Shown piece after piece: positions 32,007 through 53,026 of a DNA stretch of 64,000 bases. The stretch covers positions 4,945,001-5,009,000 of the forward strand of contig NZ_CP032674.1 in NCBI RefSeq assembly GCF_021730305.1. Direction: 5' to 3'. This DNA comes from Xanthobacter sp. YC-JY1 (GTDB lineage Bacteria > Pseudomonadota > Alphaproteobacteria > Rhizobiales > Xanthobacteraceae). Below the pieces are notes generated by a model. It saw only the letters and a list, made by a program, of their open reading frames with translations, had not been told where the DNA came from and did not search any database. The position numbers were made by a program, and so were the translations under genes. Position 1 is the first letter of the stretch. Each line of letters opens with the position of its first letter.

Positions 32007-32343
32007 TTCGCCGCCTTGTGTAGCAGGCGTGCGTAGCAAGCGGCTTCGTAAGCTCTTGATCTTTCGCATCAAACAGCGATTTCAATGCGTTAGGGGAAAC
32101 TGGCGGGCCGCGTCCGATAGTGATGATCACTACGTTTTCGCTATAGCACTATGAAATCGCTCGCCGCCCCATGTTGCGCGCGAGATCGAACGAATTGCGC
32201 AGCGTGTGGCTTTGATTGTATGGGGACCACCTCAAGTCGGACGACGCGAAATTCAACATGACTTTCGTATTTTCGATATGGCATTTCGCGTTCGCGGTTG
32301 CTGGCGTGCGAGGGTACGTGCTTTCCCATGCAGCCATGACTTT

Positions 32344-32679
32344 TCAAACCGCGACGCAATGCATGTTCGGACGCAGCGCGGCTTCGGCGATCGCGGCCGC
32401 GTCAGCGGCATCATTCTTCTGCCGCTTCACAAAGGGCTTCACGTAGATCGGCGGAACCAGCCGCACGTGGCGTCCAAGGCCTTGAGCGACGCGGCCCCAA
32501 TAATGGCTCGTTGCGCAGGCCTCCATCGCCACGATGCAAGGCGGCTGCGCGCTCAACAGTTGGATCAGCTTCGCGCGGGACACCGTCCGGTTGAACAGAA
32601 CCGCCCCGCCCCGATCCGTGCCGCAGACCTGGAAACTCCGCTTGGCCAGGTCGATCGCAAGGACATGAACATCTGGCAT
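32344..32679 (-). pseudogene. IS110-family transposase N-terminal fragment
   Basis: ATG at 32677-32679 with a strong GGAGGGG site upstream. Residues 1-110 match the DEDD RuvC-like domain: VHVLAIDLAKRSFQVCG (first Asp), IVAMEACATSHYWGR (Glu), LVPPIYVKPFVKRQKNDAAD and DAAAIAEAA (Asp pair). The protein ends at about 32350, so the transposase_20 domain with the Ser is missing. A different IS110 copy from the one at 28812. Confidence 0.88.
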
Positions 32680-32853
32680 GTGCCCCTCCCTTGAAAGCGC
32701 CACCACGGCGCTGCCCGGACACAATACGAGCCCGCAGGAGGGGGCATCCACCCCATCAGTTCACGCCCTCCAGGCTCGGAACATCCCCTGTAACCTTACG
32801 TAAAAAAGGTGAGCCAGGACACCCACTTACCCATACATGTTATCGGCAGTGAT

Positions 32854-32885
32854 GAGGACGGCATCCGATGCAGGATGCCGTCCTC
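32854..32885 (-). terminator. Strong hairpin downstream of the autotransporter gene
   Basis: A perfect 13-base stem (GAGGACGGCATCC/GGATGCCGTCCTC) with a 6-base loop lies 18 bases after the autotransporter stop. No T-run on the minus side; on the plus side TTTGTCT follows. Probably a terminator or 3'-end stabiliser. Confidence 0.65.
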
Positions 32886-32902
32886 TTTGTCTGGGGGATG
32901 GC

Positions 32903-35900
32903 TCAGAAATTGACCCGCAGATTGCCCTTGAGCGTGTTGCTCTGCGCATCGGAGCCGAGCACGCCGTCATAGGCGAAGCCGGCGCTGACCGCGTCGTTGA
33001 AGGCATAGCTGAGGCCCACATTGAGCGCCAGCGCATCGCGGGCGATGGGCGTGCCGGAGACCAGGAACGGGGTGGAGCCGTTCAGCCACATCACCGACGT
33101 CGTGTCCACGTCGCCGAAGGCATGCTGCCAGCCCAGCTTGAGGCTGGGGGTGAAGAGGCCGTTGCCCACCACCATGTCGGTGCTTAGCCGCGCGCCCAGG
33201 GTGGTAAGCGTGGTGCTCATGGACTGCGCCGAGCCTGAGAGTGCGGCGGCGCCGCCGGTTTCGGAGAAGGCGTCGAAGTTCTGGTTCACATAGGCCACCG
33301 CCGCGAACGGCGACACCTGAGCCGGTCCGAAAGCGAACGGACGCGAGACTTCGCCGAACACCTGGGCGGTGTTGCCGTTGTAGCTGCTACCCAGGCCGTT
33401 GGAGAAGGTGCCGAAGGCGACGTTGCGAGACGCCATAGAGCGCCAGGTCGGTGTGGCTGTTGTCGGCCTTGGAGTTGAGGCTGTCCACATGGCCATCGGA
33501 CTGGCCGAAGCCGGCGGCGATGCCGAGGCGGGTGGTGTCGAACACCTTGACGTCGGCACCGGCGATGAAGCCGCTCTGGGTCCAGCCCAGGGAGGCGAGG
33601 CCGTCGCCGGAGGCATTGCCCCAGCCGCCGTAGCCGGTGGCCCACACGGCGACGTTCAGGCTCGACGAGAGCTTGGCGGTGGCCTTGTCGGGCTTGGGCC
33701 CGGTGGCGTCGTCCAGGCGCTCGTTGATGGCGGCGCGCACCTGGCGGGCGTCATCGAAGGTCTGGGCGGCGGTGGAGGCATAGACCTCGCCGGTCATCTG
33801 GCTGAGGGCGGCGGCCAATGCCGTCGGGGCCAGGCTGTAGAGGCTGTTGAACAGCCCGGCATTGGCTCCGGTCAGAGCAATGCCGGCCACCGGGCGAATG
33901 CTGTCCACCGCGCTGCCGAGCGCGCTGGCATTGGCGGTGGTGGCCAGGCCGTTGGCCGCCAGGTTGCCGTACCACAGCGGGGTGACCACCAGCGCCAGGC
34001 TGGTGGGGCCGTAGAGGGCATCGAAGCGGGTGGAGGCGGGCAGGCCGCTCGCCGGCTGGGCCAGGCCGGCGAAGGAGCCGGAGAGGCCGGCGCTGCTCTG
34101 GATCACCGTGAAGCTGGTGCCCAGCGGCGGGGTGTAGCTGTTGGTTGCGCTGCCGGTGATGCCGCGCAGGGTGGGCGCCAGGGTTCCGGCCACGGTGACT
34201 GTGCCGTTGGTGCCGGTGGTGACGAGGCGGGAATAATTGCCCGCGCCGGTTCCGGTGCCGGTGCCGTCGATGTCGGTCTGGAAGGTGGAGGTGCTGGCGA
34301 GCGTCACCGGCCCGTTGACGGTGAGGGTGCCGGGCGAGTTGCCCGGCGCCAGCCGCCCGGCCACCACCAGCGGGCCGGAGAGGGTGCCGGAGCCGCGCAG
34401 GGTGCCCGAGGTGCCGATGGCCAGCGTCGAGGAGAAGGCGCCGTTCACCGACAGCAGGCCGCCGGTGACGGTGGTGAGGCCGGTATAGGAGTTGTTGCCG
34501 GTGAGGGTGAGGGTGCCGGCACCGGCCTTGGTGAGGCTGGTGCGGCTGGCGCCATCGACGATCTGTCCGGCATAGCTGGCGGAGCTGCCGTCTGTGCCTA
34601 CCGTGAGCTGGCCATTGCCAATAACGGCGGTGGCTGTGGTGCCGGTGAGCGATCCGACCGTCAGGGCGGTGCCGCCGAGATCGATGGCGCCGTTATTGCT
34701 TAGGCGGGTGATGCCTGTGGTGCTGCCGGTGAGGGCGACGGCTGCGCCGGAGGCATTGCTCACCGTTCCGGCGAGCACGCCGGCGGCCTGGACAAAGCCG
34801 GTATTGCTGAGCCCGCCGGCAATGGTGCCGGTGGTGATCAGGGTGCCGGCATTGGTGACGCCGCCGGCCAGGGTTCCTGCGTTGGTGAGGGTGGTTCCTG
34901 CCAAGGTGACGACCGGGGCGATGAGGCTCGCGGTTTCGGTAAGCTGGAGGCCGCCGCCGGCGAGGGTCGCCTGGCCGGTGAAGCTGTGGGTGGCGGTGAA
35001 AACCAGGGTTCCTGCCCCGAGCTTGGCGAGGCCGCCGGTGCCGGAAAGGGACTGGTTCAGGGTGAAGGTATTGTCCAGGCTGGCAATATCGAAGCCGCCG
35101 CCGCCGTTGCCCCAGGTGATGGCCCGGCCGGTGGTGGTGAAGCTGGTGCCGGTGACCTGGAGGATGCCGCCGTCAAAGGTAAGGCCCCCCGCCGCCGCGC
35201 CGAGGTTGGCGTCACGGGCCACCGACAGAATACCCCCAGCGAATGTGGTGCCGCCGGAATAGCTATTGGTTCCGGTGAGCGTGAGAATGCCGTCTCCGGC
35301 CTTAATCAGGCTGCCGCGGGTAGGGACATCGGCGAAAGCCGCGACGCGCGTGGTCTCCACCTGAATCTCGGTCTGCCACTCGGGGGTGAGTGTCGGATCA
35401 TGGGCGGCCTTGCGGGCTGCCCATGCGGCCGCCGCTGCGTCATTCTCCTGCTTGCGCTGGATGAGGGCGTCCTCGGAGATGTTGTTGGACCAGGTATCGC
35501 GGGTGCCGGCCGGGAGGTTCGCGGCGACTGAGCCAAGAAATTGCCCTGGGCCATTCATGGCCTTATTGAGATCGATCACGCCCCAACCCCAGACGGCGTT
35601 GGGAGCATTGGGATTGGCATCCGCCACGCCGGCGACCACGTTGCGGTGATAGGCCGTGGTGAGCAGGACATCGCGGGCCTGCTGGTTGGTCATATAGGGA
35701 AATCGCTCCATGATCAGGGCCAGCGCGCCAGTGGCATGGGGCGCGGCCATGGAGGTGCCGTTCACTGTTGTGTAGCCGGTCTGCTTGTTTGGATTGATAG
35801 CCCATTCACCGAGATTCCATCGAGCGCCTGGCGCATAGGTAGGAACCGTACTGTTGATAGCGCTGCCTGGTGCGACAACGTACCAATATTTGGCGACGCC

Positions 35901-36788
35901 GGCTCGATTTGAATAGCTCGCGAGGACAAGATCTCCGGGATTTAGGCCGCCATTGCCCCCCTTAGCAGCTGCGCCTACGGCAAGCCAATTGCTCTCAAGA
36001 TCCGGTCTGAAATAAGGTAGCGAAGATCTAACGTTTGGGTTGCTGTATCCGGTGTTTCCCGCCGCAAATACCTGAATAATATTGTATTGTTTTGTGGTCT
36101 CGGAAAGCGCGTCGACGTAGCTGAGCTTGCCAGAAAATTTAGAATAAGCTGTGCGTAAGCCTTGGATGGTGTTGTAATTGTCTCCAGTAGGCGGGCTGCC
36201 CCAAGAGGAATTAATCACACGTGCGCCGGCCGCCGCTAGGCTACCATAAGCGTTTTTGAAGTAGGCATAATCAACGTTCGTTCCGTATCGTGCCGAGTCG
36301 TTCGTTTGTGTGTTGGTGACGTAGACATTGGCATTGAACGCCACGCCTTGCATGCCGACGCCGTCTCGGGAGGCCCCGATCGTCCCTGTGACGTGTGTCC
36401 CGTGTGGATCGTTGTAGATGGGGCTGTACGTTCCCGGAGCGGTATAAGAATCACCCGCCTTGAAGAAGCTTGGTTGTGGCGACTGATTCTGCGGCTTTCC
36501 GGACCCGTCCATAAAATAGAAGCCGTCCGATCCGAAGGTCCCGGTGATGGTGAGCGGCTTGACGCGGCCATCGGCGAATTCCGGGTGGGCACTATAGACA
36601 CCTGAATCAACAACACCCACCGTCACACCCAGGCCGGTGTAGCCCGCCGCATAGGCGTTGGCGGCGTGCATGGCTTCCAAGCCCCAATCGGCCTTGTATT
36701 CCGGCGTGCGCCAACTCGCGGGATCGGCGGTGGACAGACTCTGCGCCAAGGCGTTATGCGACACCGACGCGCCGAGCGCGGCCAGCCC
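32903..36788 (-). pseudogene. Subtilisin-like serine protease autotransporter, main part (split by IS, barrel frameshift)
   Basis: Read 5' to 3' on the minus strand: end of a signal peptide (ALGASVSHNALAQ), S8 protease domain with Asp in TVGVVDSGVYSAHPEF, His in HGTHVTGTIG and Ser in NGTSMAAPHATGALAL, then autotransporter repeats (GILTLTGTNSYSGGTTFAGG; GTLTLTGNNSYTGLTTVTGG) and an autotransporter beta-barrel ending LKGNLRVNF at 32903, with terminal Phe as expected for barrel insertion. Two lesions: an IS5-family element sits in the signal peptide at 36789, and near 33430 the frame shifts at DLALYG with about 20 barrel residues missing before RNVAFGTFSNGL. Normally a secreted or surface protease; here inactive. 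Confidence 0.88.
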
Positions 36789-36790
36789 TA

Positions 36791-37628
36791 GGGTCCAGAC
36801 TCATAACCAGTAGCTGACGGTTGCCGCGATGCTGACTGCTGCAAGGAAGTTGATGGCGAGGCGGTCATATCGTGTGGCGATGCGCCGGAAGTCTTTCAGG
36901 CGGCAGAACATGCGCTCGATGGCGTTTCGGTCGCGGTAGAGCACGGGAGAGAAGCAGTTCTTCCAGAGCCTGTTGGAGCGGGGCGGAATGTTCGGCATGG
37001 CGCCCATGCCCTCGACCTGTCGGCGGATCGCATCGCTATCGTAGCCCTTGTCACCATGGAGGATGCGGGCACTGGACATCTGGCGCAGCAGAACCGCTCC
37101 AGCGGTGCAATCTGCGACCTGTCCGCCGGTCAGCAGGAATGCGACCGGTCGGCAGTGGCGGTCTGTCAGCGCATGGATTTTGGTCGTGCGCCCGCCCCGC
37201 GAGCGGCCGATCGCCTGACTGCTCTCCCCCCTTTTCCACCAGAAGCGGAGCGATGAGCTTTGACCGCAGAACTGTCGATCAGCACCTGGGCGGGAGGACC
37301 TCCTGCGCTGGCGAGAGCATGGAAGAGGTCTGTCCAGATCCCCTTGGCAGCCCATCGGACAAAGCGGTTGTAGAGCGTCTTGCGCGGCCCATATTCGGGC
37401 GGCGCGTCGATCCATCGGCCGCCCGATTTCAGGACATGCACGATGCCGCTGATCACCCGCCGGTCATCGACACGCGGCTTGCCGCGCGTGTCCCTGGGCA
37501 GATACGGCTCAAGCCGCGCAAACTGCGCATCCGTGAGCCAGAAACGGTCTCCGCTCATCATCAGATCCTCCACGGACTGATGAATCACAACATGCTGCGA
37601 AGGCCAATTATTTTATGGGTCCGAGCCC
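36791..37628 (-). mobile_element. IS5-family (IS427-like) insertion sequence in the autotransporter signal peptide
   Basis: 838 bases with imperfect terminal repeats (left GGGTCCAGACTCATAA; right, reverse complement, GGGCTCGGACCCATAA) flanked by TA duplications at 36789-36790 and 37629-37630. Removing the element and one TA joins the autotransporter signal-peptide codons in frame. Contains a two-frame transposase. Confidence 0.9.
36801..37558 (-). CDS. IS5-family transposase, two overlapping frames
   Basis: OrfA begins at ATG 37556-37558 (GGAGG upstream): SGDRFWLTDAQFARLEPYLP, then GGRWIDAPPEYGPRKTLYNR and IDSSAVKAHRSASGG with the first DDE Asp. At the AAAAGGGGGG run (about 37224-37235) the frame changes to OrfB: GRSRGGRTTKIHALTDRHC, ILHGDKGYDSDAIRR (second Asp) and RDRNAIERMFCRLKDFRRIA (Glu). 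The homopolymer is the usual programmed frameshift site in this group. Both halves look intact. Confidence 0.9.
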
Positions 37629-37718
37629 TAGGCCGGTGTGCCGCAGCAGCGAGGCGATAGATGTCCGCCGGCCCCTGCGATCCGTTGGGATTGATCGAAC
37701 AAGCCTTTTCACGCGCAT
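37629..37718 (-). pseudogene. Displaced 5' end of the autotransporter gene
   Basis: ATG at 37716-37718 encodes MRVKRLVRSIPTDRRGRR and TSIASLLRHTGL; after excision of the IS5-family element it continues in frame into GLAALGASVSHNALAQ of the main part. Together they form a basic N-region, hydrophobic core and cleavage site. 30 codons, now separated from the body by 838 bases. Confidence 0.85.
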
Positions 37719-38288
37719 TCCACTCACCGCTTGATAGGAAACAGGATCGGCCATCCGTGACGGAGTGGACCGAATGCTCGAAATTCAGGTCAGCTTGCCG
37801 GTCACCCGCGACTTGGGCGTGGGAGGGTCTATGATGGCAGAAAGGGGACGCGACGATTGCCTTCGGCGCCAGACATGGCACATCAGTCGCGCAGGAATCT
37901 TGATGCGCACACGTGCAGCCAATCGCTCTCTTGGGTGCTTTTTTGTTGAGCTATCGCTCAGTTTGAGTGCTGGTGCCAGGGATGTGAAAGCCCTGGTCGG
38001 CGGCTGCCGGTAACATGGCATCGCCTGTCGCTCGCCGCTGGTGGAGAGCGAGCGCAGCCCAGCATGTCAGGCATTGTATCTCTATCCCTTTGTCACTCAT
38101 TGGCTCGGAGAGCCATCGAGCATGGCGGCAATGGAAAAATTCGTCACCTAATTAGTCTAGGTTACGGTTCATAAAATCTGCTTGTCCAGAAAATTTAAGC
38201 AACTTTCAGAAACTATCTCTGGATATATTGGGTTGCGGTCGGATCGATATTATAATCAATTGGTGTAAGGCCTCGACACCTCACGCTA
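37719..38288. other. Intergenic stretch between the autotransporter start and an IS5-family element
   Basis: Contains the former autotransporter promoter region and, near 37977-37995, a small hairpin (CCAGGG...CCCTGG). AT content rises toward 38130-38270. No ORF with recognisable similarity. Confidence 0.45.
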
Positions 38289-39212
38289 GGCCGTGTGGAC
38301 GGATTGCGGTGGGTTTAGGCAGAGGGGATTCCCTTCTGCCCCTTTCGGTGATTCATAGCGGGTCGGCTTTTGGCGAGATCGACCATGCTGACGCGGATGA
38401 CGGACGAGGATTGGGCGCTGGCGCTGGAGGTGTTCCGCGCCTGCCGTTCACGGCGCGGCGACAAGGGTCGCGACGATCGCAAGTTCCTCGAAGCCATGCA
38501 CTATTTCACTGTGCACAACATCACCTGGCGGGCACTGCCTGCCGAGTTCGGCGCGTGGAATAGCGTCTGGAAACGGTTCTGGCGGCTACGTCAGGCCGGC
38601 GTGTTCGAGCTTTACTTCGAAACCCTGGCCTCGCTGAGCCGCACGGCCCATCTGGTCCAGATGTTCGATTCCACCGTGGTGCGCGCCCACGTCTCCGCCG
38701 CCGGAGCAAAAGGGGGCAGGACGGCCAAGCCCTCGGCCGTTCGCGCGGCGGCTTCTCCACCAAGATCCACCTCAAGAGCGACTTCGACGGCCTGCCGATC
38801 GCCTTCCACCTGACCGGCGGGGAAGCCGGCGACAGTCCGCTCTTCAAGCTGCTGCTGGATCTGGGTCCCGATGTCACGCCGCGCGCGGCGCTCGCCGACA
38901 AGGGCTATGACGCCAAGGCCAACCGGGCCATCGCCCGGGCGCGCGGCATCGCGTCCGCCATCCCTTTCAAATCCAACGCGAAGGAGCGCCCAGCCTTCTT
39001 CCCGAAGGCGCTTTACAGGGGGCGCGCCCGCATCGAGCAGTGCTTCGGAAAGCTCAAGCGCTTCAAGCGCGTCGCCCTGCGCTGCGAGAAGACCGAATGC
39101 GGCTTCGCCGCCATCGTCGCTCTCGCCTTCAGCTTCATCCTCATCCTCATCCTCATCCTCATCCTCATCCTCATCCTCATCCTCATCCTCATCAAAATCC
39201 GTCCACACAACC
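38289..39212 (+). mobile_element. IS5-family insertion sequence with internal hexanucleotide repeat
   Basis: 924 bases bounded by 17-base terminal repeats with two mismatches (GGCCGTGTGGACGGATT at 38289-38305 and its partner at 39196-39212) and TA duplications at 38287-38288 and 39213-39214. Encodes a two-frame transposase. A CATCCT repeat abuts the inner edge of the right repeat. Confidence 0.88.
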
Positions 39213-39253
39213 TAATATGGCGCAGTGGCACTCCACAAACCGATTACACATGA
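38385..39253 (+). CDS. IS5-family transposase, two frames, C-terminus altered by repeat expansion
   Basis: OrfA starts at ATG 38385 (or 38397): MTDEDWALALEVFRACRSRR, then NITWRALPAEFGAWNSVWKR and MFDSTVVRAHVSAAGAKGG (first Asp). At the AAAAGGGGG run near 38707 the frame shifts -1 to OrfB: LGRSRGGFSTKIHLKSDFDG, ALADKGYDAKANRA (second Asp), RGRARIEQCFGKLKRFKRVA (Glu) and FAAIVALAFSF. The normal end would be ILIKSVHTT; here a CATCCT repeat gives about nine Ile-Leu pairs, and an extra A at 39194-39197 pushes the frame past the terminal repeat to 39253. Confidence 0.8.
39136..39193 (+). repeat. CATCCT hexanucleotide repeat (about 9.7 copies)
   Basis: 58 bases of perfect CATCCT units in the 3' end of the IS5-family transposase gene, encoding alternating Ile and Leu in the OrfB frame. 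Unit length is a multiple of three, so copy-number change would lengthen or shorten the tail without changing frame. Confidence 0.97.
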
Positions 39254-39388
39254 ATTGCGCAAGATGGTCAATTAATTTCCAATTCGGTGCCAATTATAAA
39301 CGATAAGATATAGTATTATTATATGAAGATCTGGCCATTAATATGGCAGCGATCGGCAGTGTGTCGTGGAACTTATAGTCTATCGTGG

Positions 39389-42070
39389 TCAGGTATATGT
39401 TTTTTTCTCCACCGCCGCCGCGCAGAACTTGAAGTCCGGCACGCGGGTGGTGGGATCCAGTCGGTTCACCGTCAGTTCGTTCGCAGCCGCCTCGAAGAAG
39501 GACATGGCCATCCACACGACGCCCGGCCGCACCGCCCGATCGGGCATAGCGGCGAGATGCACCATCCCGCGGCGCGTGCGTACCTCCACTTCCCCTCCGA
39601 CGGTCACGCCCAGCCGGGCGAGGTCGTCAGGATGCATGTGGGCCTGCGGCTCCGGGCTCAGGGCCTCCAGCACCGGCGAGCGGCGGGTCATGGTGCCCGT
39701 GTGCCAGTGTTCGCGCAGGCGGCCGGTCATCAGGATGAAGGGATAGTCGGCGTCCGTCATCTCGTCCGCACCACTCGCGTCGAGAGGCACGATGGCGGCC
39801 TTGGCCCCGCGGGGAAAATCATCGCCGAACAGGCTCTCGCCGGCGCCGGCTGGGCGCAAGGGGTAGCGCGCATGGTCGTCTTGGACCATCATCCGCCAGC
39901 TGAAGCCGGCAAGGGTGGGCAGTTCCTGCGCCATGTCCTCGAACAGGCTCTCCACAGTCAGATTTGCCCACGATAGGCCGAGGCGCGCGCCGATGTCGCG
40001 AATGATGCGCCAGTCCGGTCGCGCGCCGCCGGGCAGGGGCAGCGCCGGTGCGATGCGTTGCACCAGTCGGTCGGTATTGGTCACGGTACCCGCCCGCTCC
40101 GCCAGCGCCGCTGCGGGCAGGATCACATCGGCGAAGGCCGCGGTCTCGGTGGGGAAGATATCCTGCACCACCAGATGCTCCAGGCAGGCCAGCCCGGCGC
40201 GGGTGACGGCGAGGTCCGGGTTGGCCATGGCCGGGTTGCCACCCACCACATAGAGCCCGCGCACCGCCCCTCGACGGGCCGCATCGAACATTTCCACCAC
40301 CGTGTGACCTGCCTGCGCAAGCGGCCGGTAGCCGGGGAGATAGTTGGGCAACAGGCCGGCGTCGCAGGAGCCCTGCACGTTGTTCTGCCCGCGCAGGGGA
40401 TGGAGGCCCGCGCCGGGACGACCCACCTGCCCGCACACGAGAGCGAGGGCGATGACGGCCCGGATGTTGTCCGCGCCGAAGGCGTGCTGCGAGGCACCCA
40501 TGCCCCAGAAGGTCATGGCCGCGCGCGTCCCGGCGAACAGGCGGGCGGCGGCCACGATGTCCTGCGCCGGAACGCCCGTGAGGCCGGCCGCCATCTCCGG
40601 CGTGAAAGGTGCGACCCGCGCGCGCAGCGCCTCGAAGCCCTCCAGCCGCCCAGAGACGAAATCCCGGTCGTGGAGCCCCTCCTCAATCACCACGCGCGTC
40701 ATGGCGGAGAGCAGGGCCACATCCGTCCCCGGGGCCGTCCTGAGGTGATGGGTGGCGAACCGCGACAGGGCCTGAATGCCGGGATCCACCAGGATGAGCT
40801 TCGTCCCACGCCGAAAGGCATTCTTCATGAAGGAGGCGGCCACCGGATGGTTGCTGTCCGGGTTGCTGCCCACCATCAGCACCACCTCGGCGCAGGCGAT
40901 CTCCTCGATGGGGGCGGTCACGGCGGCGAAGCCGGTGGCCTCCGCCAGCGGCGGCACCGAGGCGCACAAGCGTGTGCAGTGGTCAACATGGGGGGTGCCC
41001 AAGCCCATGCGTGCGAGTTTCTGCAGGAGATAGGCATCTTCGTTCGAACCCTTTGCCGACCCTAGCACCGCCAGAGATCCGGGGCCGTGCGCCGCGCGCA
41101 ACCGGGCGAAGCCACGAGCGGCGGTGTCCAGCGCCTCGTCCCAGTCAACGGGACGGAACAGGTCCAGCACCGCGGCGCCGCGCAGGGCGAGGGCCGGATC
41201 CTTGGGCGCATCCGCCCGGCGCACCAGGGGCACGGTGAGGCGATCCGGATGCCTCAGGTAGGAAAAGCCGAAGCGGCCCTTGACACACAACCGACCGCGG
41301 TTCGCCGGGCCGTCGGCACCTTCCGCCCACGCCACCTCGTCGTCGACCATATGCAGGGTGACCCGGCAGCCGACGCTGCAGAAGGGGCAGACCGTTTCGC
41401 CCTTGGCCGTCACCGCGGTCCGTCCACCGGCCCGCTCCAGCGCCTTGGGCGCCAGCGCGCCGGTGGGGCAGAGCTGGGCGCATTCCCCGCAGGAGGCGCA
41501 GTTGCTCTCCCCCATGGCCATCCCGGCATCGAATGTCACGTGGATGCCGTCGCCTCGCCCGGCGAGGGCGATGACCCCATTCACCTGCACGTCACGGCAT
41601 CCCGCCCGGCACTTGCCGCAGCGGATGCACGCCTCCGGGTCGAGGACAATGGCGGGGTGGCTGGCATCCGCGGGACGGCCTGCCGCCCGGTGGCCGAAGC
41701 GATCGGGATCGGCTCCGGTGCGCGCGACGAGATCGAGGAACGGCGTGTCGGGGTGGCGCGCCTTCGCCGCGGCGCTCATCTCGGAGGCGAGCAGGCTGAC
41801 CGCGAGCCGCCGCACCCGCGCGGCGCGCGGCGTGTCGGTGCGCACGGCGAGTCCGGTCCGGACCCTGTGGCGGCAGGCAGGAACCAACTCGGCTTCGCCC
41901 TCCACCTCCACCAGGCAGGTGCGACAGCTGCCCATGGGCGCGAAGCCATCGCGCGTAGAAGCGCACAGGTGAGGTAGGTCGAGTCCGGCGGCGGTGGCCG
42001 CCTGCAGCAGGCTCTGCCCGTCCTGCGCGGCAACGGGCTGGCCGTCGATGGTGAAGTTGATGAGGCTCAT
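39389..42070 (-). CDS. FdsA-like molybdopterin oxidoreductase (formate dehydrogenase alpha family) in the ptx operon
   Basis: 893 residues. N-terminal [2Fe-2S] ferredoxin domain (C36, C49, C52, C66), two [4Fe-4S] sets (C148, C151, C154, C158; C191, C194, C197, C201), a third cluster set (C228, C231, C235, C262), then the molybdopterin domain. The active-site stretch is VDHCTRLCASVPP: Cys369 is present, but the His that normally follows the catalytic Cys/Sec in formate dehydrogenases is missing, apparently through a two-residue deletion; Arg560 (PLRGQNNVQG) is kept. The gene overlaps the NuoF-like gene by 4 bases, downstream of ptxBCA. An NAD-linked molybdenum enzyme of altered substrate range is suspected; ordinary formate oxidation cannot be excluded. 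Confidence 0.85.
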   Translation of the reverse strand: MSLINFTIDGQPVAAQDGQSLLQAATAAGLDLPHLCASTRDGFAPMGSCRTCLVEVEGEAELVPACRHRVRTGLAVRTDTPRAARVRRLAVSLLASEMSAAAKARHPDTPFLDLVARTGADPDRFGHRAAGRPADASHPAIVLDPEACIRCGKCRAGCRDVQVNGVIALAGRGDGIHVTFDAGMAMGESNCASCGECAQLCPTGALAPKALERAGGRTAVTAKGETVCPFCSVGCRVTLHMVDDEVAWAEGADGPANRGRLCVKGRFGFSYLRHPDRLTVPLVRRADAPKDPALALRGAAVLDLFRPVDWDEALDTAARGFARLRAAHGPGSLAVLGSAKGSNEDAYLLQKLARMGLGTPHVDHCTRLCASVPPLAEATGFAAVTAPIEEIACAEVVLMVGSNPDSNHPVAASFMKNAFRRGTKLILVDPGIQALSRFATHHLRTAPGTDVALLSAMTRVVIEEGLHDRDFVSGRLEGFEALRARVAPFTPEMAAGLTGVPAQDIVAAARLFAGTRAAMTFWGMGASQHAFGADNIRAVIALALVCGQVGRPGAGLHPLRGQNNVQGSCDAGLLPNYLPGYRPLAQAGHTVVEMFDAARRGAVRGLYVVGGNPAMANPDLAVTRAGLACLEHLVVQDIFPTETAAFADVILPAAALAERAGTVTNTDRLVQRIAPALPLPGGARPDWRIIRDIGARLGLSWANLTVESLFEDMAQELPTLAGFSWRMMVQDDHARYPLRPAGAGESLFGDDFPRGAKAAIVPLDASGADEMTDADYPFILMTGRLREHWHTGTMTRRSPVLEALSPEPQAHMHPDDLARLGVTVGGEVEVRTRRGMVHLAAMPDRAVRPGVVWMAMSFFEAAANELTVNRLDPTTRVPDFKFCAAAVEKKTYT

Positions 42071-43560
42071 GCGCTAACACCGCGGCCGGGGATGGACAGC
42101 CGCCCGAGGAAGCGGCCCGCATTGCGCCCGAGCGCGCACAGGGAGGCTTCGCCCATGACCGCTGCGAGGTCTTCGAGAAGATGCTGATCCAGCGGGCCCG
42201 GCGCAGCCAGGGCGCGCGAGGCGTGCGCGGTGCCGATGCGGCAGGGCCCACACTGGCCACAGCTCTCCCGTGCCAGATAGGCCGCCATGCGGGCGGCAAT
42301 GGCGCGCGGCTCGTCTGTCGCGCCGAACACGATCGCCCCGCCCGTGCCGAGGCGCAGCCCTTCGTCCAGCAGATCGGCAAGCGGCCTGTAGCAGTCTGCG
42401 GCGCTCACCAGCGCCCCCGCCGATCCGCCGATCACCATGCCGCCGAGGGCATGGCCGTCCTGCATTCCACCGGCGATCTCCACCAGGTCGGCGAGGCGCA
42501 ACAGACCGCGCATCGGCTTCGGCCCCGGTGCGCACACCCGGCCCGAGACGCTGAACAGCCGAACCTCGGGATCCAGGAGGGCCGAGGCAGGCGAGCCCAG
42601 CGTGCCGCCCCACGCTGCAGTGACGCGATAGAAGGTCTCCACGTTGTGCAGCAAGGTGGGCCGGCCGAGATAGCCGCAGGCGGTGGGAAAGGGCGGGCGC
42701 TCGACAGGGCGGGCCGGGCGTCCCTCGAGGCTCGCGATGAGCGCCGTTTCCTCGCCGCAGATGAAAGCACCACCGCTGCGCCGCAGCTCCAGGGCGAGGC
42801 CCTCCGCGAGGCCGGCCCCCGCCACCTCCATCAGCGCTTGACGCAGGATGGCGTGGATGGGGACGTAGTCGTCGCGCACGTAGAGGAACACCTGGTCCGC
42901 GCCTATCACCCGCGCGGCCACCAGGGCCGCCTCGATCACGCCGTGCGGGTCGTTCTCCAGGATGAAGCGGTCCTTGAAGATGGCAAGCTCGCCCTCGTCG
43001 CCGTTCACGATGACCACCGGCGTGCCGCCGGCAGCGATCACCTGCCGCCACTTCTCCGCCACCGGGAAGCCGACGCCCGCCCGCCCCACCGCCTGGTGCA
43101 CCGACAGCCGCTCCAACATCTGCGCCGCCGCGCCGGGATCGGCCATGATGCGGCCGAGCTGCCCGTAGCCCCCTGCCGCCCGGTAGGCCGCGAAGGAGCG
43201 CGGAACGGGTTCGGGGCGGGGCCCGTCACAACGGTTGCGGCACACTCCGGCGCCGAGCGCGCCGTGCAGCAGGCCGCACACCAGATCGCCGCAGCCGTCG
43301 GCGGCATAGGGCGTGGTGGCGGCGTAGTTCACCGCCGGAAATGCGGTGGCCACCTCGTATGCCTCGGAGGGGAACAGGCGCAGGCGCTCGGCCAGCGCCA
43401 GAAGCCCGGCCTGAGAGATGCCGATCCCGCCCTTGGCGTCGCGGACCTCCAGCAGGATTTCCAGAAGCCGGCCGCGATCATCGCCGCGGGCAAGCACGGT
43501 GGCGATCGCGGCCCATTCTGCGGTGTCAGCGGGCGTCGCGGTCTCAGGAACGGGCGGCAC
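42067..43560 (-). CDS. NuoF-like NADH-binding diaphorase subunit (FdsB type)
   Basis: 497 residues. An N-terminal NuoE-like helical region (about 1-130) has atypical Cys spacing (DGCGDLVC, AGVCRNRC). The NuoF core follows: FMN/NADH region VGRAGVGFPVAEKW and VVIVNGDEGELAIFKDRF, GGAFICGEETALIASLEGRP, a SLBB-type region, and the [4Fe-4S] motif ESCGQCGPCRIG with a distal Cys in SLCALGR. It would pass electrons from the molybdoenzyme to NAD+. Its start overlaps the end of ptxA by 17 bases and its end overlaps the molybdoenzyme gene by 4, so all are one operon. Confidence 0.88.
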   Translation of the reverse strand: MPPVPETATPADTAEWAAIATVLARGDDRGRLLEILLEVRDAKGGIGISQAGLLALAERLRLFPSEAYEVATAFPAVNYAATTPYAADGCGDLVCGLLHGALGAGVCRNRCDGPRPEPVPRSFAAYRAAGGYGQLGRIMADPGAAAQMLERLSVHQAVGRAGVGFPVAEKWRQVIAAGGTPVVIVNGDEGELAIFKDRFILENDPHGVIEAALVAARVIGADQVFLYVRDDYVPIHAILRQALMEVAGAGLAEGLALELRRSGGAFICGEETALIASLEGRPARPVERPPFPTACGYLGRPTLLHNVETFYRVTAAWGGTLGSPASALLDPEVRLFSVSGRVCAPGPKPMRGLLRLADLVEIAGGMQDGHALGGMVIGGSAGALVSAADCYRPLADLLDEGLRLGTGGAIVFGATDEPRAIAARMAAYLARESCGQCGPCRIGTAHASRALAAPGPLDQHLLEDLAAVMGEASLCALGRNAGRFLGRLSIPGRGVSA

Positions 43561-44347
43561 GATACAGGTCCTCCCGCAGGCCGGGGGTGAAGGCGGCCGC
43601 CGGGCCGTCGAAGAACAGGCGCCCCTGGCGCAGGGCGATGATGCGGTCGGCGTAGCGCACGGCGAGATCCACCTGATGCAGGCTGCACAACACCGAGAAG
43701 CCGCGCTCCCGCGCCGCCCGCTGCAGGATCTGCAGCACGTTCTCGGAGGATTCCGGATCGAGGCTGGATATGGGCTCGTCGGCGAGGATCAGTTCCGCCT
43801 GCTGGGCGAAGGCGCGGGCGATGGCGACCCGCTGCTGCTGCCCGCCGGAAAGACGCTCCGCGCGCTGATAGGCTTGGTCCATGAGGCCCACGCTGTCGAG
43901 GCAGGCGAGCGCCAATTGCCGGTCCCGCGCGCGGAAGCGGCGCAGCAGCACCCGCCACAGGGGCGTCGTCGCGAGCCGGGCCGCCAGCACGTTGTCGATG
44001 GCGCTGAAGCGCTTTACCAGATTGAACTGCTGAAACACGAACCCCACCTCCCGGCGCAGCGCCTCAAGGGCAGCGGGCTTCAGGGCAGTCACCTCGGTGC
44101 CGCGGATGGTGACGCTTCCGGCATCCGGCTCCACCAGGCGGGTCAGGCAGCGGAACAGGGTGGACTTGCCGCACCCGGAGGGGCCGAGCAGCACCACGAA
44201 CTGGCCGGCAGGCACGGTGCAGGAGACGCGATCCAGCACCACGCGACCGTCGAACGCCTTGCTCAGGTCGCGCACGACGATTGCGGCACCCTCCTCCTCG
44301 CCCAGGGAACGGTCGTGCGGCAGATGCGCAGGGGCGATGCTCTTCAT
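43544..44347 (-). CDS. ptxA: Phosphite/phosphonate ABC transporter ATP-binding protein
   Basis: 267 residues. PhnC-type ATPase: Walker A GPSGCGKSTLFRCL, Q-loop FVFQQFNLVKRFSAIDNVLA (the PhnC-like FQQFNLV), signature LSGGQQQRVAIARAF, Walker B LILADEPISSLDPES and H-loop SLHQVDLA. Energises uptake through the PtxC permease. Called ptxA because ptxD and ptxE are divergent neighbours; on sequence alone it could be phosphonate-specific. Confidence 0.88.
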   Translation of the reverse strand: MKSIAPAHLPHDRSLGEEEGAAIVVRDLSKAFDGRVVLDRVSCTVPAGQFVVLLGPSGCGKSTLFRCLTRLVEPDAGSVTIRGTEVTALKPAALEALRREVGFVFQQFNLVKRFSAIDNVLAARLATTPLWRVLLRRFRARDRQLALACLDSVGLMDQAYQRAERLSGGQQQRVAIARAFAQQAELILADEPISSLDPESSENVLQILQRAARERGFSVLCSLHQVDLAVRYADRIIALRQGRLFFDGPAAAFTPGLREDLYRAARS

Positions 44348-44368
44348 CGGTCAACTCCCATGGGCCGC

Positions 44369-45250
44369 TCAGGCGCGGCTTTCGCCTTCGAAAAGGCGCG
44401 TCGGCGTGCCGGCGCGGGTGGCGGCGGTCTCGGGGCTCAGCACGAGACGGCGCAAGTGGGCGCTCAGGGTGTCGATGGCGATCACCATGGCGAGGATGAC
44501 GCCCAGCACGGTGGCCAACTTAGGAAAGTCGAGCAGGTCGATGGAGTCCTTCAGCGTCTGGCCGATGCCGCCGGCACCGACGATGCCCAGCACCGTGGAG
44601 GCGCGCACGTTGAACTCCCAGATGTAGAGGGTGACGGCGACGATGTTCGGCCACACGTCCGGCAGGAGGGCGTAGCGGAACGCGCGCACCGGGCCGGCAC
44701 CGGTGAGCTCCAACGCCTCCACCGGGCCGCGATCGGCCGGCTCGATCACCTCAGTGAGCAGCTTGCCGAGGGCGCCCACCATGTTGAACATGACGGCCAG
44801 CACGCCAGTGAAAGGGCCGAACCCCACCGCCGCCACGAAGATGAGGGCGAATACCAGGATCTCGGTGCCGCGCAGCACCCCGAACACCGCCCGCACCAAA
44901 CGATAGACCAGAAGATTCGGCGTGGTGTTGCGCGCGGCAAGCGGCACCAGTGGGATGCACACGAGAAGGGCGCCGATGGTGCCCACCGTGGCCATGGCGA
45001 GGGTCTGGAATGCGTCGCGCAGCACCCGGTCGATATCCCGTACGTCCGGCGGAAACATCTGCTGGAACCAGGAGGCGATCTTCGGCAGCCCGTCCACGAG
45101 CTTCGCCAGGTCCACCTTCGCCGCCGCGAAGCACATCCCGAGGAACAGGGTCACGGCGAGGAAGACGAGCCCCCGCCGCAGATTGTGCCACGTTAGTAGC
45201 GACCGGGCCGGCTCGACGTAGCGTGTCTCCTCGAAGCTTGCGATGGTCAT
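44369..45250 (-). CDS. ptxC: Phosphite/phosphonate ABC transporter permease (PhnE family)
   Basis: 293 residues with about six membrane helices. PhnE-type features: MFPPDVRDIDRVLRDAFQTL before the core, and the EAA-loop-like EALELTGAGPVRAFRYALLPDVWP followed by ELNVRASTVLGIVGAGGIG (here EFNVRASTVLGIVGAGGIG). Single permease, presumably a homodimer. Lies 21 bases before ptxA and 96 bases after ptxB; two hairpins occupy the latter gap. Confidence 0.88.
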   Translation of the reverse strand: MTIASFEETRYVEPARSLLTWHNLRRGLVFLAVTLFLGMCFAAAKVDLAKLVDGLPKIASWFQQMFPPDVRDIDRVLRDAFQTLAMATVGTIGALLVCIPLVPLAARNTTPNLLVYRLVRAVFGVLRGTEILVFALIFVAAVGFGPFTGVLAVMFNMVGALGKLLTEVIEPADRGPVEALELTGAGPVRAFRYALLPDVWPNIVAVTLYIWEFNVRASTVLGIVGAGGIGQTLKDSIDLLDFPKLATVLGVILAMVIAIDTLSAHLRRLVLSPETAATRAGTPTRLFEGESRA

Positions 45251-45288
45251 GGACGGTCTCCCCTGGCTCGGCGCGCTATGAAACGGAC

Positions 45289-45338
45289 GCCCGGCTTCAT
45301 GCCGGGCGCGACGTGGCCGGTGCCCGAAGGCACCGGCC
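45289..45338 (-). promoter_or_regulatory. Two consecutive hairpins between ptxB and ptxC
   Basis: Stem 1: GCCCGGC/GCCGGGC at 45289-45307 with a 5-base loop. Stem 2: perfect 10-base GGCCGGTGCC/GGCACCGGCC at 45315-45338 with a CGAA loop. Without T-runs, they probably protect the 3' end of ptxB mRNA or dampen downstream expression, as is common after binding-protein genes. Confidence 0.65.
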
Positions 45339-45346
45339 CGCGCGGA

Positions 45347-46560
<1,214 letters not shown>

Positions 46561-47430
46561 ATGCTGAATCTGTCTCAGGTTCAGACCTTTCTGGCGGTCA
46601 TCGATGAGGGCGGCATCCAGTCGGCAGCGGAGCGCCTTGCCTGCTCGCAGCCGGCCGTCTCGCAGCAGTTGCGCAAGCTCGAGGAGTTCGTCGGCGTGCC
46701 CCTCGTGGTGCGCAACCGCAGCCGCGCGGTCCCCACCCGTGACGGCGAGTTGTTCCTGCCGAAGGCCCGCTCCCTCATAGCCAGCGCCGACCGTGCCCGC
46801 GCCGTCGTCTCCGATCGCCGCCTGGTGGTGCATGCCAGCGGCAACGTAGGAGTCTATCTTGCGCCGCGCCTCATCGCCGTGTTCGAGCGCGACCTGGATC
46901 GGCCCGGCACGGTGGACCTCGTCATCACCACCAACCGCCATGCGGTGGACGCCCTCATCGCCGGCGAGGCGGACATCGCTCTCACCGAATGGAGCGAGGA
47001 CCACCCGGCCGTGGAATGGCAGGGCTGGCGCCGAGAGAAGTTGGTGGTGATTGCCGGCCCCGACCATCCGCTCGCGAAGGAGCGCTGCATTCCGCGCCAG
47101 GCACTGCTCGACCATCCCATCATCGGCGGCGAGCCCGGCACCGGCACCGGCCGGGCGCTCGCCGGCATGTTCGGGCCCGATGCTGGGCGCCTGCGCGTGG
47201 CACGCCAACTCGGCAGCACCGCCGCCGTGAAGGAGGCGGTCAAGGCCGGGCTCGGCCTTTCCGTGGTGTTCGCCTATTCCGTGGCCGAGGAGGTGAAGGC
47301 CGGCACGCTCACCATGCTGGAACTGGAGGAGGCCGACATCTTCAAGACCTTGTTCATCGGCCTCGGCCGCGAAAGCCCGCAATCCTCCATGGCCCGGCGC
47401 TTCGCCACCTTCTGCCTCGCCTCCGCTTGA
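46561..47430 (+). CDS. ptxE: LysR-family regulator, PtxE-like
   Basis: 289 residues from ATG 46561, with GGGCGGGGGC ending 7 bases upstream (ATG 46555 and GTG 46513 also possible). LysR helix: LSQVQTFLAVIDEGGIQSAA, SQPAVSQQLRKLEEFVG; the effector domain follows. Adjacent to ptxD (26 bases) and divergent from ptxB, the position expected of a phosphite-locus activator. Whether it answers to phosphite or to phosphate limitation cannot be read. Confidence 0.85.
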   Translation: MLNLSQVQTFLAVIDEGGIQSAAERLACSQPAVSQQLRKLEEFVGVPLVVRNRSRAVPTRDGELFLPKARSLIASADRARAVVSDRRLVVHASGNVGVYLAPRLIAVFERDLDRPGTVDLVITTNRHAVDALIAGEADIALTEWSEDHPAVEWQGWRREKLVVIAGPDHPLAKERCIPRQALLDHPIIGGEPGTGTGRALAGMFGPDAGRLRVARQLGSTAAVKEAVKAGLGLSVVFAYSVAEEVKAGTLTMLELEEADIFKTLFIGLGRESPQSSMARRFATFCLASA

Positions 47431-47456
47431 TCCCACTCCTGCCGCAAGAGACATCC

Positions 47457-48452
47457 ATGGCTCGCAAGACCCTCGTCACCAACTGGGTCCACCCCGAGGT
47501 GCTAGATCTGCTTTCCACCCGCGGTGCGGTAGAGGCCAACACCACCCGCGAGCCGTGGCCGCGCGCGGAACTCCTGCGCCGCGCGCGCGACGCCGACGCC
47601 ATCCTGGCCTTCATGACGGACCACGTGGATGGCGCCTTCCTCGAAGCCTGCCCGGATCTGAAGGTCGTCGCCTGCGCCCTGAAGGGAGCAGACAATTTCG
47701 ACATGGAGGCGTGCCGGGCGCGCGGCGTCGACGTGACCATCGTGCCCGACCTGCTCACCGCGCCCACCGCAGAACTCGCCGTCGGCCTCATGATCGCCCT
47801 CGGCCGCAATCTGCTCGCCGGCGACCGGCTGATCCGCCAGCACCCGTTCGCCGGCTGGCGGCCGGTACTCTACGGCATGGGGCTCGATGGGGCGGAGGTG
47901 GGCATCGTGGGCATGGGTGCCGTGGGCCAGGCCATCGCCCACCGCGTGCGGCCATTCCGCTGCCGCATCTCCTATTGCGACGCGCACCCGCTTTCTCCCG
48001 CCGCGGAGGATGCGCAGGGGCTCCTGCGGCGCGATCTGGCAGAGTTGCTGGCACGCAGTGACTATCTGGTGTTGGCGCTGCCATTGAACGCGGAGTCGCG
48101 CCACCTGATCGATGCGGCGGCGATCGCGGCCATGAAGCCGGGCGCGCTCCTCATCAACCCCGCCCGCGGATCGCTGGTGGACGAGGCGGCGGTCGCCAAC
48201 GCCCTAGAGGCGAACCATCTCGGCGGGTATGCGGCCGACGTGTTCGAGACGGAGGACTGGGCCCGGCCTGATCGGCCCGCCGGCGTCGAGCCGCGACTGC
48301 TCTCTCATGCCCGCACGGTTCTGACCCCCCACATTGGCTCGGCGGTCGACAGCGTGCGGCGGGACATCGCCCTCGCCGCCGCTCGCAACATCCTGCGCCA
48401 TCTGGACGGATTGCAGCGGGAGCCACCTTCGCACGATCGCTCTGCCGCCTGA
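47457..48452 (+). CDS. ptxD: Phosphite dehydrogenase
   Basis: 331 residues. D-2-hydroxyacid dehydrogenase fold with Rossmann motif VGIVGMGAVGQAIA (148-161). Residues fall at the same numbers as in the well-studied Pseudomonas stutzeri PtxD: Lys76 (ACALKGADNFD), Arg237 (INPARGSLVDE), Glu266 (DVFETEDWARPDRP) and His292 (TPHIGSAVDS). At the NAD-selecting position 175 it has Asp in place of Glu, still an NAD-type residue. The enzyme oxidises phosphite to phosphate with NAD+. Transporter and regulator genes are adjacent. Stop at 48450-48452 closes the ptx locus on the right. Confidence 0.95.
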   Translation: MARKTLVTNWVHPEVLDLLSTRGAVEANTTREPWPRAELLRRARDADAILAFMTDHVDGAFLEACPDLKVVACALKGADNFDMEACRARGVDVTIVPDLLTAPTAELAVGLMIALGRNLLAGDRLIRQHPFAGWRPVLYGMGLDGAEVGIVGMGAVGQAIAHRVRPFRCRISYCDAHPLSPAAEDAQGLLRRDLAELLARSDYLVLALPLNAESRHLIDAAAIAAMKPGALLINPARGSLVDEAAVANALEANHLGGYAADVFETEDWARPDRPAGVEPRLLSHARTVLTPHIGSAVDSVRRDIALAAARNILRHLDGLQREPPSHDRSAA

Positions 48453-48718
48453 CACGGCCCGTCGGTGGCCATCAAGCAATACCAGCGCGACAGCAGCCTT
48501 CAAAGCATCATCATGACCAATGCGGAAATTGCGATCGCATCTTCAATCACCTCTTCAGCCGGGCCTTGCGCGAGGTGCGCGAAACCTCGAGCCCGTGATG
48601 TGCGTCGCCGTTGCGCGGCGTTGCCGCGCGATGACGGGTGGCGCTGCGATATGTGATGTCTCCGCGCCGCCCGCCATCGGTCATACCCTGCCATGCCGAT
48701 CCTGCGCGGTGATGGGAT

Positions 48719-48946
48719 TCATGCCGTAGCTTCATGCTCGAACGCCTGCTTTCCCTTGTCGGCCCAGAGCGCCAACGCCTTGTCGCGTTCATCGCTTTGG
48801 AGCTTGTCGGCCGCCCAGAGCAGGGCGCCGTAGATGATGGCGCGATCATCGCAGGTCAGGTCCACGATCCCGGCTTTGACGACGAGACCGCCGAGTTCGA
48901 TCAGATGCCGCGTGCGTTGGCGGCGTTCGACCTGCCAGGTTCGCAT
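48719..48946 (-). CDS. traD: Conjugal transfer protein TraD (Ti type)
   Basis: 75 residues from the ATG at 48944-48946, one base beyond the traC stop. MRTWQVERRQRTRHLIELGG, then LVVKAGIVDL, IIYGALLWAADKL and ALWADKGKQAFE are characteristic of the small TraD protein paired with TraC in Ti-type Dtr modules. It probably assists the relaxosome. The 266 bases between it and ptxD hold no clear gene. Confidence 0.82.
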   Translation of the reverse strand: MRTWQVERRQRTRHLIELGGLVVKAGIVDLTCDDRAIIYGALLWAADKLQSDERDKALALWADKGKQAFEHEATA

Positions 48947-48947
48947 A

Positions 48948-49274
48948 TCATGCCGCGCTCGTGCTGCCTGATGCCGGTTGCGCACCGTCCGGTTGCGGTT
49001 GAGCGCCGCCCGCGTCGCGGTCAGATGCCGATGCAGATCGCCGCGCCCGGCTTTGAAAGAACGCGGCCCCGCGCTTGGCCCACGCCTCCCTCTTTCCGGC
49101 GTCCTTGGTTTCGGCCAGCACGATCAGCGCGCCCGCCAGTTCGTCGACGGTGAGCGCGTCGGCTCCGGTCAAGATCACCAGTTCGCCGAGTTGCTGCACC
49201 TTGCGCGTTTTAAGTTCCCGCGCCTTGTCCTCCAGCGCCTTCAGTTCAGCGCCATAGTCCCGTGGTTTCCGCAT
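48948..49274 (-). CDS. traC: Conjugal transfer protein TraC (Ti type)
   Basis: 108 residues from the ATG at 49272-49274 (MRKPRDYGAELKALEDKA). A helical N-terminal part, then VQQLGELVILTGADALTVDE, LAGALIV and REAWAKRGAAFFQ, typical of TraC oriT-binding accessory proteins; the tail is low-complexity. Divergent from traA across the candidate oriT, the standard arrangement. Confidence 0.85.
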   Translation of the reverse strand: MRKPRDYGAELKALEDKARELKTRKVQQLGELVILTGADALTVDELAGALIVLAETKDAGKREAWAKRGAAFFQSRARRSASASDRDAGGAQPQPDGAQPASGSTSAA

Positions 49275-49349
49275 CGTCGTCTCCATAAGCAATGGATGGA
49301 GCGATGATAGTTTCGTGTCGGCCGGAATGCTGTAAGGTTGCCGGGACGG

Positions 49350-49420
49350 CCTGGAACGGCGCGGACCGTCCCGAGAAATTCATTTCGAGGGCGCGCTTAT
49401 ACGTCGTTCCGACGTGCGCT
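49350..49420. other. Candidate oriT with nic-like core
   Basis: Between traC and traA. The minus strand reads TAAGCGCGCCCTCG across 49386-49399, one base different from the TAAGTGCGCCCT nick core of MOBQ (RSF1010/Ti-type) origins. A perfect inverted repeat ACGTCG-TTC-CGACGT (49401-49415) lies beside it, and GGGACGG/CCGTCCC flanks it on the other side. Confidence 0.75.
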
Positions 49421-49445
49421 TGGGAGCAGTATCTGGTCGGTCGCC

Positions 49446-52361: not shown

Positions 52362-52489
52362 ACCGTCCTATTTACCGCCCCCTCTGCGCCACGGCCCTAC
52401 GACGGCTAAATCCCTATTGCACAACAATAAACCCTTGCCTTTGCCTCTCCTGGCAGTCCCACGAAAAGCCAGCAGGAGGCAGCCCAGCC

Positions 52490-52708
52490 ATGCGCCAGCC
52501 AGATCGTATCATCCGCATGAACACCGTCCGCGACCGCACCGGCCTGTCCCGGTCCACCATCTACCGCAAGATCGCCGAGGGTACGTTCCCGCCCCAGATC
52601 AAGATCAGCATCAACGGCGCGGGCTGGCGGGAATCCGACATCGACCGTTGGGTCGCCAACCCCGTGGCGTGGCGGCCCGGAAGCGGGCGCGGCCGCGATG
52701 GCGTCTGA
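52490..52708 (+). CDS. AlpA-family helix-turn-helix regulator
   Basis: 72 residues: DRIIRMNTVRDRTGLSRSTI, YRKIAEGTFPPQIKI and GWRESDIDRWVA are the AlpA/MerR-like excisionase-type winged helix. In islands, AlpA proteins turn on or direct excision. It sits between the relaxase and recombinase modules. Confidence 0.9.
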   Translation: MRQPDRIIRMNTVRDRTGLSRSTIYRKIAEGTFPPQIKISINGAGWRESDIDRWVANPVAWRPGSGRGRDGV

Positions 52709-52940
52709 TCGCGGAGCGCGCTCCCGCGCCCGGCGCGTCAGGCCGCCCACAGCGTCGGAGCAGCTTGAGGCGCTGCTGGGATACCATGTTCCCATGGGCC
52801 GACCGCCCAAACACGACCTGTCCATCTGGACCGTCACCGACGATTGGCCGCGCCCCGTTCCGGTCACAGAGGCTGAGATCGAGGTGTTCGAGCAATGGTT
52901 CGGCGACCTGTTCGATGAACTATTCTGTTCCGGCGGCTGA
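52698..52940 (+). CDS. Small hypothetical protein of the mobile element
   Basis: 80 residues, overlapping the alpA stop by 11 bases. Contains MGRPPKHDLSIWTVTDDWPR and an acidic aromatic end EIEVFEQWFGDLFDEL. No catalytic motif seen. The overlap suggests coupled expression with AlpA. Function unknown. Confidence 0.6.
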   Translation: MASDRGARSRARRVRPPTASEQLEALLGYHVPMGRPPKHDLSIWTVTDDWPRPVPVTEAEIEVFEQWFGDLFDELFCSGG

Positions 52941-52982
52941 TGCTTCAGGCGTCGAAATCGACGTTGAAATCTGCCCTCCGAC

Positions 52983-53007: not shown

Positions 53008-53026
53008 ACATATGTGAGGGCGCAAC

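Follow-up and report, generated by a model that had tools for sequence, protein, structure and literature searches.

The closest described relatives of the system considered here are the htxABCDE/ptxDE loci of the Pseudomonas stutzeri WM88 type, together with plasmid loci of Cupriavidus and Burkholderia, in which an HtxB-type substrate-binding protein, a permease, and an ATPase accompany PtxD and a LysR-type regulator, and in which the oxidase is HtxA of the phytanoyl-CoA dioxygenase family. HtxA, an O2-dependent dioxygenase, is the sole hypophosphite oxidase named in the literature searched. We analyzed a stretch of 64,000 nucleotides, hereafter the window, from the 5.39 Mb, one-contig genome of Xanthobacter sp. 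YC-JY1 (assembly GCF_021730305.1, contig NZ_CP032674.1, positions 4,945,001 to 5,009,000). Its locus has the binding protein, permease, ATPase, PtxD, and LysR regulator of the htx loci but, instead of HtxA, which a genome search did not find, a pair of proteins derived from formate dehydrogenase: a molybdopterin-binding catalytic subunit and a NuoF-like partner. This pair and the HtxB-like binding protein also distinguish the locus from ptxABCDE phosphite loci, with which it has PtxD and the LysR regulator in common. The nearest solved relative of both subunits is FDH1 of Methylorubrum extorquens (PDB 7vw6, 7e5z), built on the same two-subunit plan; relative to FDH1, the window enzyme has a deleted histidine, a rebuilt loop, a shortened NuoE-like stretch, and a different operon context. 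FdsABG/FdsA-type NAD-linked formate dehydrogenases (PDB 6tg9) have the same domain order in the catalytic subunit but match less closely (E 1e-143, compared with 7e-257 for 7vw6); the subunit, called FdsA-like in the original prediction, which was made from the DNA letters alone, is nearer to FDH1 than to FdsA. The features of the locus are as follows.

39389..42070, minus strand: catalytic subunit, 893 residues, FDH1-like, with 2Fe-2S, 4Fe-4S, and molybdopterin oxidoreductase domains (Pfam/NCBIfam; PDB 7vw6; alignments)
42067..43560, minus strand: NuoF-like partner binding flavin mononucleotide (FMN) and NADH, 497 residues, with a short N-terminal NuoE-like stretch (Pfam; PDB 7e5z chain B)
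43544..44347, minus strand: PhnC-type ATP-binding cassette (ABC) transporter ATPase (TIGR02315, above cut-off)
44369..45250, minus strand: PhnE-type ABC permease (TIGR01097, above cut-off)
45347..46228, minus strand: HtxB-type (hypophosphite) periplasmic substrate-binding protein (structure-database match and pocket residues)
46338..46368, no strand: candidate operator, inverted repeat AATGAAA-N17-TTTCATT, within the conserved block 46325-46375 between the binding-protein and LysR genes
46513..47430, plus strand: LysR-type regulator, PtxE-like (Pfam/NCBIfam), divergent from the operon
47457 (ATG)..48452, plus strand: PtxD, NAD:phosphite oxidoreductase, divergent from the operon

We propose, with a probability of about 0.7, that the operon is a hypophosphite-assimilation module in which the NAD-linked molybdenum or tungsten pair derived from FDH1 oxidizes hypophosphite in the place of HtxA. 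The HtxB-type ABC transporter would import hypophosphite, and the two-subunit enzyme (39389-42070 plus the diaphorase 42067-43560) would oxidize it to phosphite at a molybdenum or tungsten bis-pterin center, the P-H bond being attacked with water as the presumed source of oxygen. Electrons would pass through the iron-sulfur clusters to FMN and on to NAD+, and PtxD would then take phosphite on to phosphate, using another NAD+. The ancestor of the enzyme would be a formate dehydrogenase of the FDH1 type. Its Cys-His pair would since have been rebuilt, with the histidine deleted and a CAS[VI]PPL loop in its place, and the enzyme would stand in for a dioxygenase that needs both O2 and 2-oxoglutarate. 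It is likely, in our estimate, that this constitutes a second, oxygen-independent hypophosphite route, by way of a molybdenum- or tungsten-pterin hypophosphite:NAD+ oxidoreductase that arose from FDH1 and works without the histidine of formate dehydrogenases. The hypophosphite/phosphite potential is given as -740 mV (PMC5700983). Compared with the potential of the NAD couple, this is low enough for NAD+ to suffice as the acceptor. Hypophosphite has been called a formate analog (PMC12571268), and HtxA is reported to accept formate as well, with rates that are comparable (PMC11066067).

The five minus-strand genes are tightly packed in the order binding protein, permease, ATPase, NuoF-like subunit, molybdopterin subunit, with intergenic distances of 96, 21, -17, and -4 bases. 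The original prediction had read the 17- and 4-base overlaps on one strand correctly, coordinates included, and was also right about a divergent true ptxD and ptxE: among solved structures, PtxD hits phosphite dehydrogenases with E values of about 1e-107, with the next family at 2.5e-53, and the LysR gene adjoins it on the same plus strand. Its description of the enzyme pair as fused into the operon is accurate for overlapping genes of one apparent operon and in no other sense. The transporter that it labeled ptxABC is better taken as htx-type because the binding protein is HtxB-like, with an E value of 2e-135 to solved HtxB and 1e-23 to PtxB. The order of transporter and molybdopterin genes recurs in loci whose molybdopterin proteins share just 57-73% identity with that of the window, which indicates more than chance. 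The inverted repeat upstream is exact also in L105 and weaker in L066, L016, and L023, and is possibly the operator of the LysR regulator. A tandem pattern resembling the Pho box was considered and rejected, since the window holds two matches where 2.86 would be expected, and none in the promoter region of the operon.

The binding protein narrows the substrate of the enzyme, being of the hypophosphite type. HtxB selectivity has been credited to W52, N128, and F158, replacing Tyr, Ser, and His, plus an R178-D206 ion pair; the pocket is described as small and hypophosphite-selective, with dissociation constants of 0.56 uM for hypophosphite and >10 mM for phosphite (PMC5700983), although HtxBCDE carries phosphite as well at 1 mM (PMC5357788). 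The window protein has all five, as W77, N153, F183, R203, and D231, and so, wherever the position is covered, does every HtxB-type locus compared (identical copies L010, L011, and L093-L096 set aside; D206 lies outside the coverage of L102 and L120). Where Te_PtxB places His, Tyr, and Ser around O3, the window protein has F, W, and N, and so lacks the signature of PtxB-type phosphite-binding proteins. As in htx loci, then, the window appears from its residues to encode an HtxB-type protein with a hypophosphite-selective pocket, and its transporter looks made for hypophosphite. Sixteen loci with binding proteins 39-48% identical all keep W52 and R178, with Ser at 128 and His at 158.

In a survey of 296 genomes of the family, relatives of the molybdopterin subunit at E <= 1e-200 were found in 139. 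Their identities fall into two peaks, one at 59-100% (nine places in eight genomes) and the next at 46-49% for full-length proteins (up to 51% for partial ones). The clade to which the upper peak belongs was seen in 11 genomes: G000, G018, G077, G130, G180, G198, G222, G289 (two loci), and the metagenome-assembled genomes of L016, L021, and L023. Six pairs of records represent the same DNA and are counted once (G130/L012, G018/L010, G077/L011, G198/L013, G222/L014, G289/L015). Two of 14 sampled genomes of the window's own genus carry the clade. Searches with the molybdopterin subunit at E <= 1e-275 hit the window's own genome alone in the order and class samples (1 of 397 and 1 of 385 genomes), as did a phylum search with the binding protein at E <= 1e-60 (1 of 398), cut-offs that miss partial or distant copies.

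The original prediction would have been refuted had the clade occurred mostly away from ptx genes, which was not the case. Transporter genes accompany eight of nine clade loci on named contigs, the ninth (L015) beginning inside the NuoF-like gene at a contig end; L014 has the transporter without the binding protein, which is where its contig is cut. PtxD and LysR adjoin the operon in six of the nine and are cut off in two; in L021 they were not found within 2.2 kb upstream. Binding protein, permease, and PtxD were found in none of 12 ordinary FDH1 neighborhoods, inspected over up to 20 kb and drawn from about 130 such genomes, the weak matches there being generic ABC ATPases in two loci and a 73-residue LysR match in one.

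Across the 296 genomes, HtxB-type binding proteins were found at 11 places, spread over 10 genomes, and at nine of these places the molybdopterin gene shares the contig; at the other two (in G222 and on contig C174 of G289) the contig ends inside the operon and the remainder lies on another contig of the same genome. HtxA was found in none of these 10 genomes by a search that did recover the positive control, G235. It is absent from the window locus, and the sole PhyH protein of the host genome, 28% identical, is encoded elsewhere. Membership in the PhyH family was not counted as a sign of HtxA, since PhyH proteins, present in four of seven genomes and in four of these 10, are just 22-28% identical to HtxA. 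Among plasmids, all three records with a 60-80% identical HtxB-type protein have a phytanoyl-CoA dioxygenase (HtxA-type) gene immediately upstream of it; of two records inspected with a 42-45% identical protein, one shows the same arrangement. In the loci examined the enzyme pair replaces HtxA, with one exception described below. Twelve loci from the 39-48% group served as a control and yielded no molybdopterin subunit and one HtxA. Ten neighboring open reading frames (ORFs) chosen from loci of that group gave Pfam matches to TauD dioxygenase, radical-SAM/phosphoesterase, reductase, nitrilase-like, and SRAP-like families, five having no match. Radical-SAM/phosphoesterase, TauD dioxygenase, or two annotated radical-SAM proteins lie near such transporters in L107 (5672-7555), L117 (7037-7975), and L122 (5598-7921), and possibly belong to other pathways for reduced phosphorus.

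The active site was compared across seven distinct clade proteins (11 loci less four duplicates) and 24 FDH1-like controls (22 loci of the same family plus L017 and L020). The histidine that follows the metal-ligand cysteine, and that we take, along with other active-site residues, to be catalytic in formate dehydrogenases, is missing from all seven, which read C--AS[VI]PPL, and is present as CH in all 24 controls. The FDH1 sequence RLCHASS corresponds to RLC--AS[VI]PPL throughout the 59-100% identity group, and in L016, L021, and L023 as well. Clade and controls are separated by 30 fixed differences, six of them at positions 361 and 369-374. The window subunit retains the metal-ligand Cys369 and the conserved active-site arginine, Arg560, and shares with formate dehydrogenases of the FDH1/FdsA type the succession of Fer2, 4Fe-4S, molybdopterin oxidoreductase, and dinucleotide-binding domains. 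Its NuoF-like partner matches PDB 7e5z chain B at E 2e-66, a match limited to residues 120-482, and has near its N-terminus a four-cysteine motif, C-x4-C-x11-C-x3-C, whose middle gap spans 11-17 residues in four clade loci and 18 in the second branch described below; L021 and 12 of 12 FDH1 loci have 26 (L063 and L065, where the pattern matched an upstream stretch, are left out). AlphaFold2 models of the NuoF-like and molybdopterin subunits (mean pLDDT 61.8 and 45.2) were too poor to use. FdhD was found in all eight host genomes tested.

Several observations weigh against the proposed role. L021 has the enzyme pair and a 47% identical HtxA on one contig, and its binding protein is 43% identical, with Ser and His replacing N128 and F158. 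In L070 (8277-13491), the molybdopterin gene comes straight after the transporter and the NuoF gene is lacking. Of the 10 genomes in which HtxA was not found, two are incomplete, G222 at 85% and G289 at 84%. The 39-48% group of binding proteins, mostly found without the enzyme pair, also has W52, R178, and, with one exception, D206, which leaves only N128 and F158 to tell the two groups apart. Lastly, a second deep branch pairs HtxB with a molybdopterin subunit that keeps CysHis; loss of the histidine is therefore not needed for whatever the pairing of the two proteins does.

This second branch comprises L103 and L104 (G230 and G215, of another genus), in which PtxD, NuoF, molybdopterin subunit, HtxB, permease, ATPase, and LysR are encoded in one cluster. 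Its HtxB is 78-79% identical and its molybdopterin subunit 43%, the latter departing at sites where the clade and FDH1 agree (DHPTRLC, YPIRGHNNAQG, and H-HTG for HWHTG). Given the retained CysHis, the link between HtxB and the molybdopterin enzyme either predates the histidine deletion or arose twice. The two HtxB-linked branches are joined with values of 97/94 and 98/97. Because long branches meet at this point and the test does not reject the alternative (p-AU 0.103), one recruitment and two are both compatible with the tree. The PtxD of L103 (11714-12668) matches in two overlapping frames and may be broken or carry a sequencing error.

Of the alternatives, the one that survives best, though we think it unlikely, is that the pair oxidizes, in place of inorganic hypophosphite, a different P-H compound imported by the same transporter, an organic phosphinate (R-PHO2-) for instance: the specificity of the window's binding protein is read from residues, and L021 couples the enzyme with a different type of binding protein, but the small, hypophosphite-selective pocket of HtxB (PMC5700983) and the adjoining PtxD, which uses inorganic phosphite, speak against it. 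An ordinary NAD-linked formate dehydrogenase, placed here by chance or clearing formate made elsewhere in phosphorus metabolism, is slightly more doubtful. The overall homology to FDH1 and a partial score of 587.8 bits to the formate dehydrogenase alpha-subunit model TIGR01591, below its cut-off of 666.25, would fit such an enzyme; against this, the histidine is gone from every distinct clade protein, the link to the transporter is fixed, and the host genome has an FdsA-type enzyme, 33-35% identical to the window subunit, that keeps CH. The suggestion in the original prediction of an NAD-reducing pair acting on a reduced phosphorus compound, a phosphonate-derived C1 product, or formate survives in its first part, an NAD-linked molybdopterin pair tied to reduced phosphorus, with the substrate narrowed toward hypophosphite by the binding protein; formate has become unlikely. 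It is very improbable that the catalytic subunit no longer carries out redox chemistry and has some other function, such as sensing or electron storage, as loss of a residue presumed catalytic might suggest, for the metal-ligand Cys, Arg560, and the iron-sulfur cysteines are invariant in all seven rows of the clade alignment and the NuoF-like partner keeps its NADH, FMN, and 4Fe-4S motifs. Least credible is a second phosphite dehydrogenase, which would find phosphite available inside the cell but is encoded alongside a true PtxD and behind a binding protein not of the phosphite type.

The operon lies on a mobile island, of which two features were delimited.

32095..55361, no strand: mobile island with the operon, bounded on the right within the 3' end of a tRNA-Ser gene (blastn against G018, G077, and G130; tRNA scans)
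53730..55487, plus strand: large serine recombinase, the probable island integrase, with an ORF that extends beyond the island end

The island, 23.3 kb in length, is nearly identical in four genomes of three genera, with DNA identity of 99.7-99.95% over 32095/32098 to 55361. In the comparisons with G018 and G077 its left end is sharp; the contig of G130 runs out within the island. Different tRNA-Ser genes lie at the right end, with the anticodons CGA (window), GCT (G018 and G077), and GGA (G130). Operon proteins are 100% identical in Aquabacter sp. P-9 (L010), a metagenome-assembled genome (L011), and Xanthobacter aminoxidans (L012), apart from one LysR residue in two of them. Judged by these comparisons, the trait moves between three genera on the island. 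Two long ORFs, 49380-51497 (minus strand) and 51466-52995 (plus strand), have no Pfam or NCBIfam match but have 59% and 47% identical homologs on the L021 contig that carries the molybdopterin operon, and are perhaps core genes of the mobile element. Island cargo includes an autotransporter serine-peptidase-like ORF of 1125 residues (33387-36764), inside which ARAGORN places a probably false tRNA-Thr (34172-34271). An IS5-family transposase without its N-terminal part (36801-37415, minus strand) is present, and between it and the molybdopterin gene lies a second IS5-like remnant, 40.6% identical, on the opposite strand. A low-complexity ORF (38612-39208) has no match in PHROGs.

The original prediction's word "undescribed" cannot be asserted, because a 2006 thesis by Wilson concerns Xanthobacter flavus WM2814, an organism probably of the same genus as the window's that has been counted among the users of hypophosphite (PMC5700983, reference 31) and appears in a published figure on ptx operons (legend, PMC4046663). 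In the literature searched, where most subscription papers fell outside the scope, the phrase "hypophosphite dehydrogenase" is absent, and no description of such an enzyme was found in the available text for hypophosphite together with formate dehydrogenase, molybdenum, Xanthobacter, or WM2814. The Wilson thesis, which may anticipate the system, is said to propose a formate-dehydrogenase-like enzyme. No molybdenum or tungsten enzyme is known to act on phosphorus, and the chemistry is possibly unprecedented.

If the proposal is true, genomes with htxB but without htxA would be explained. A survey of 865 genomes reported htxB in four, of which two had htxA (PMC11066067), and for the other two the molybdopterin/NuoF operon, its presence there being hypothetical, is a candidate explanation. 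CAS[VI]PPL beside HtxB would provide a sequence marker for the system, and the natural deletion of the histidine offers a test of the role of that residue in formate dehydrogenases. Molybdopterin catalysis would extend to phosphorus, and there would be a way to oxidize a very reduced phosphorus oxyanion without oxygen and with a gain of NADH, two for each hypophosphite converted to phosphate.

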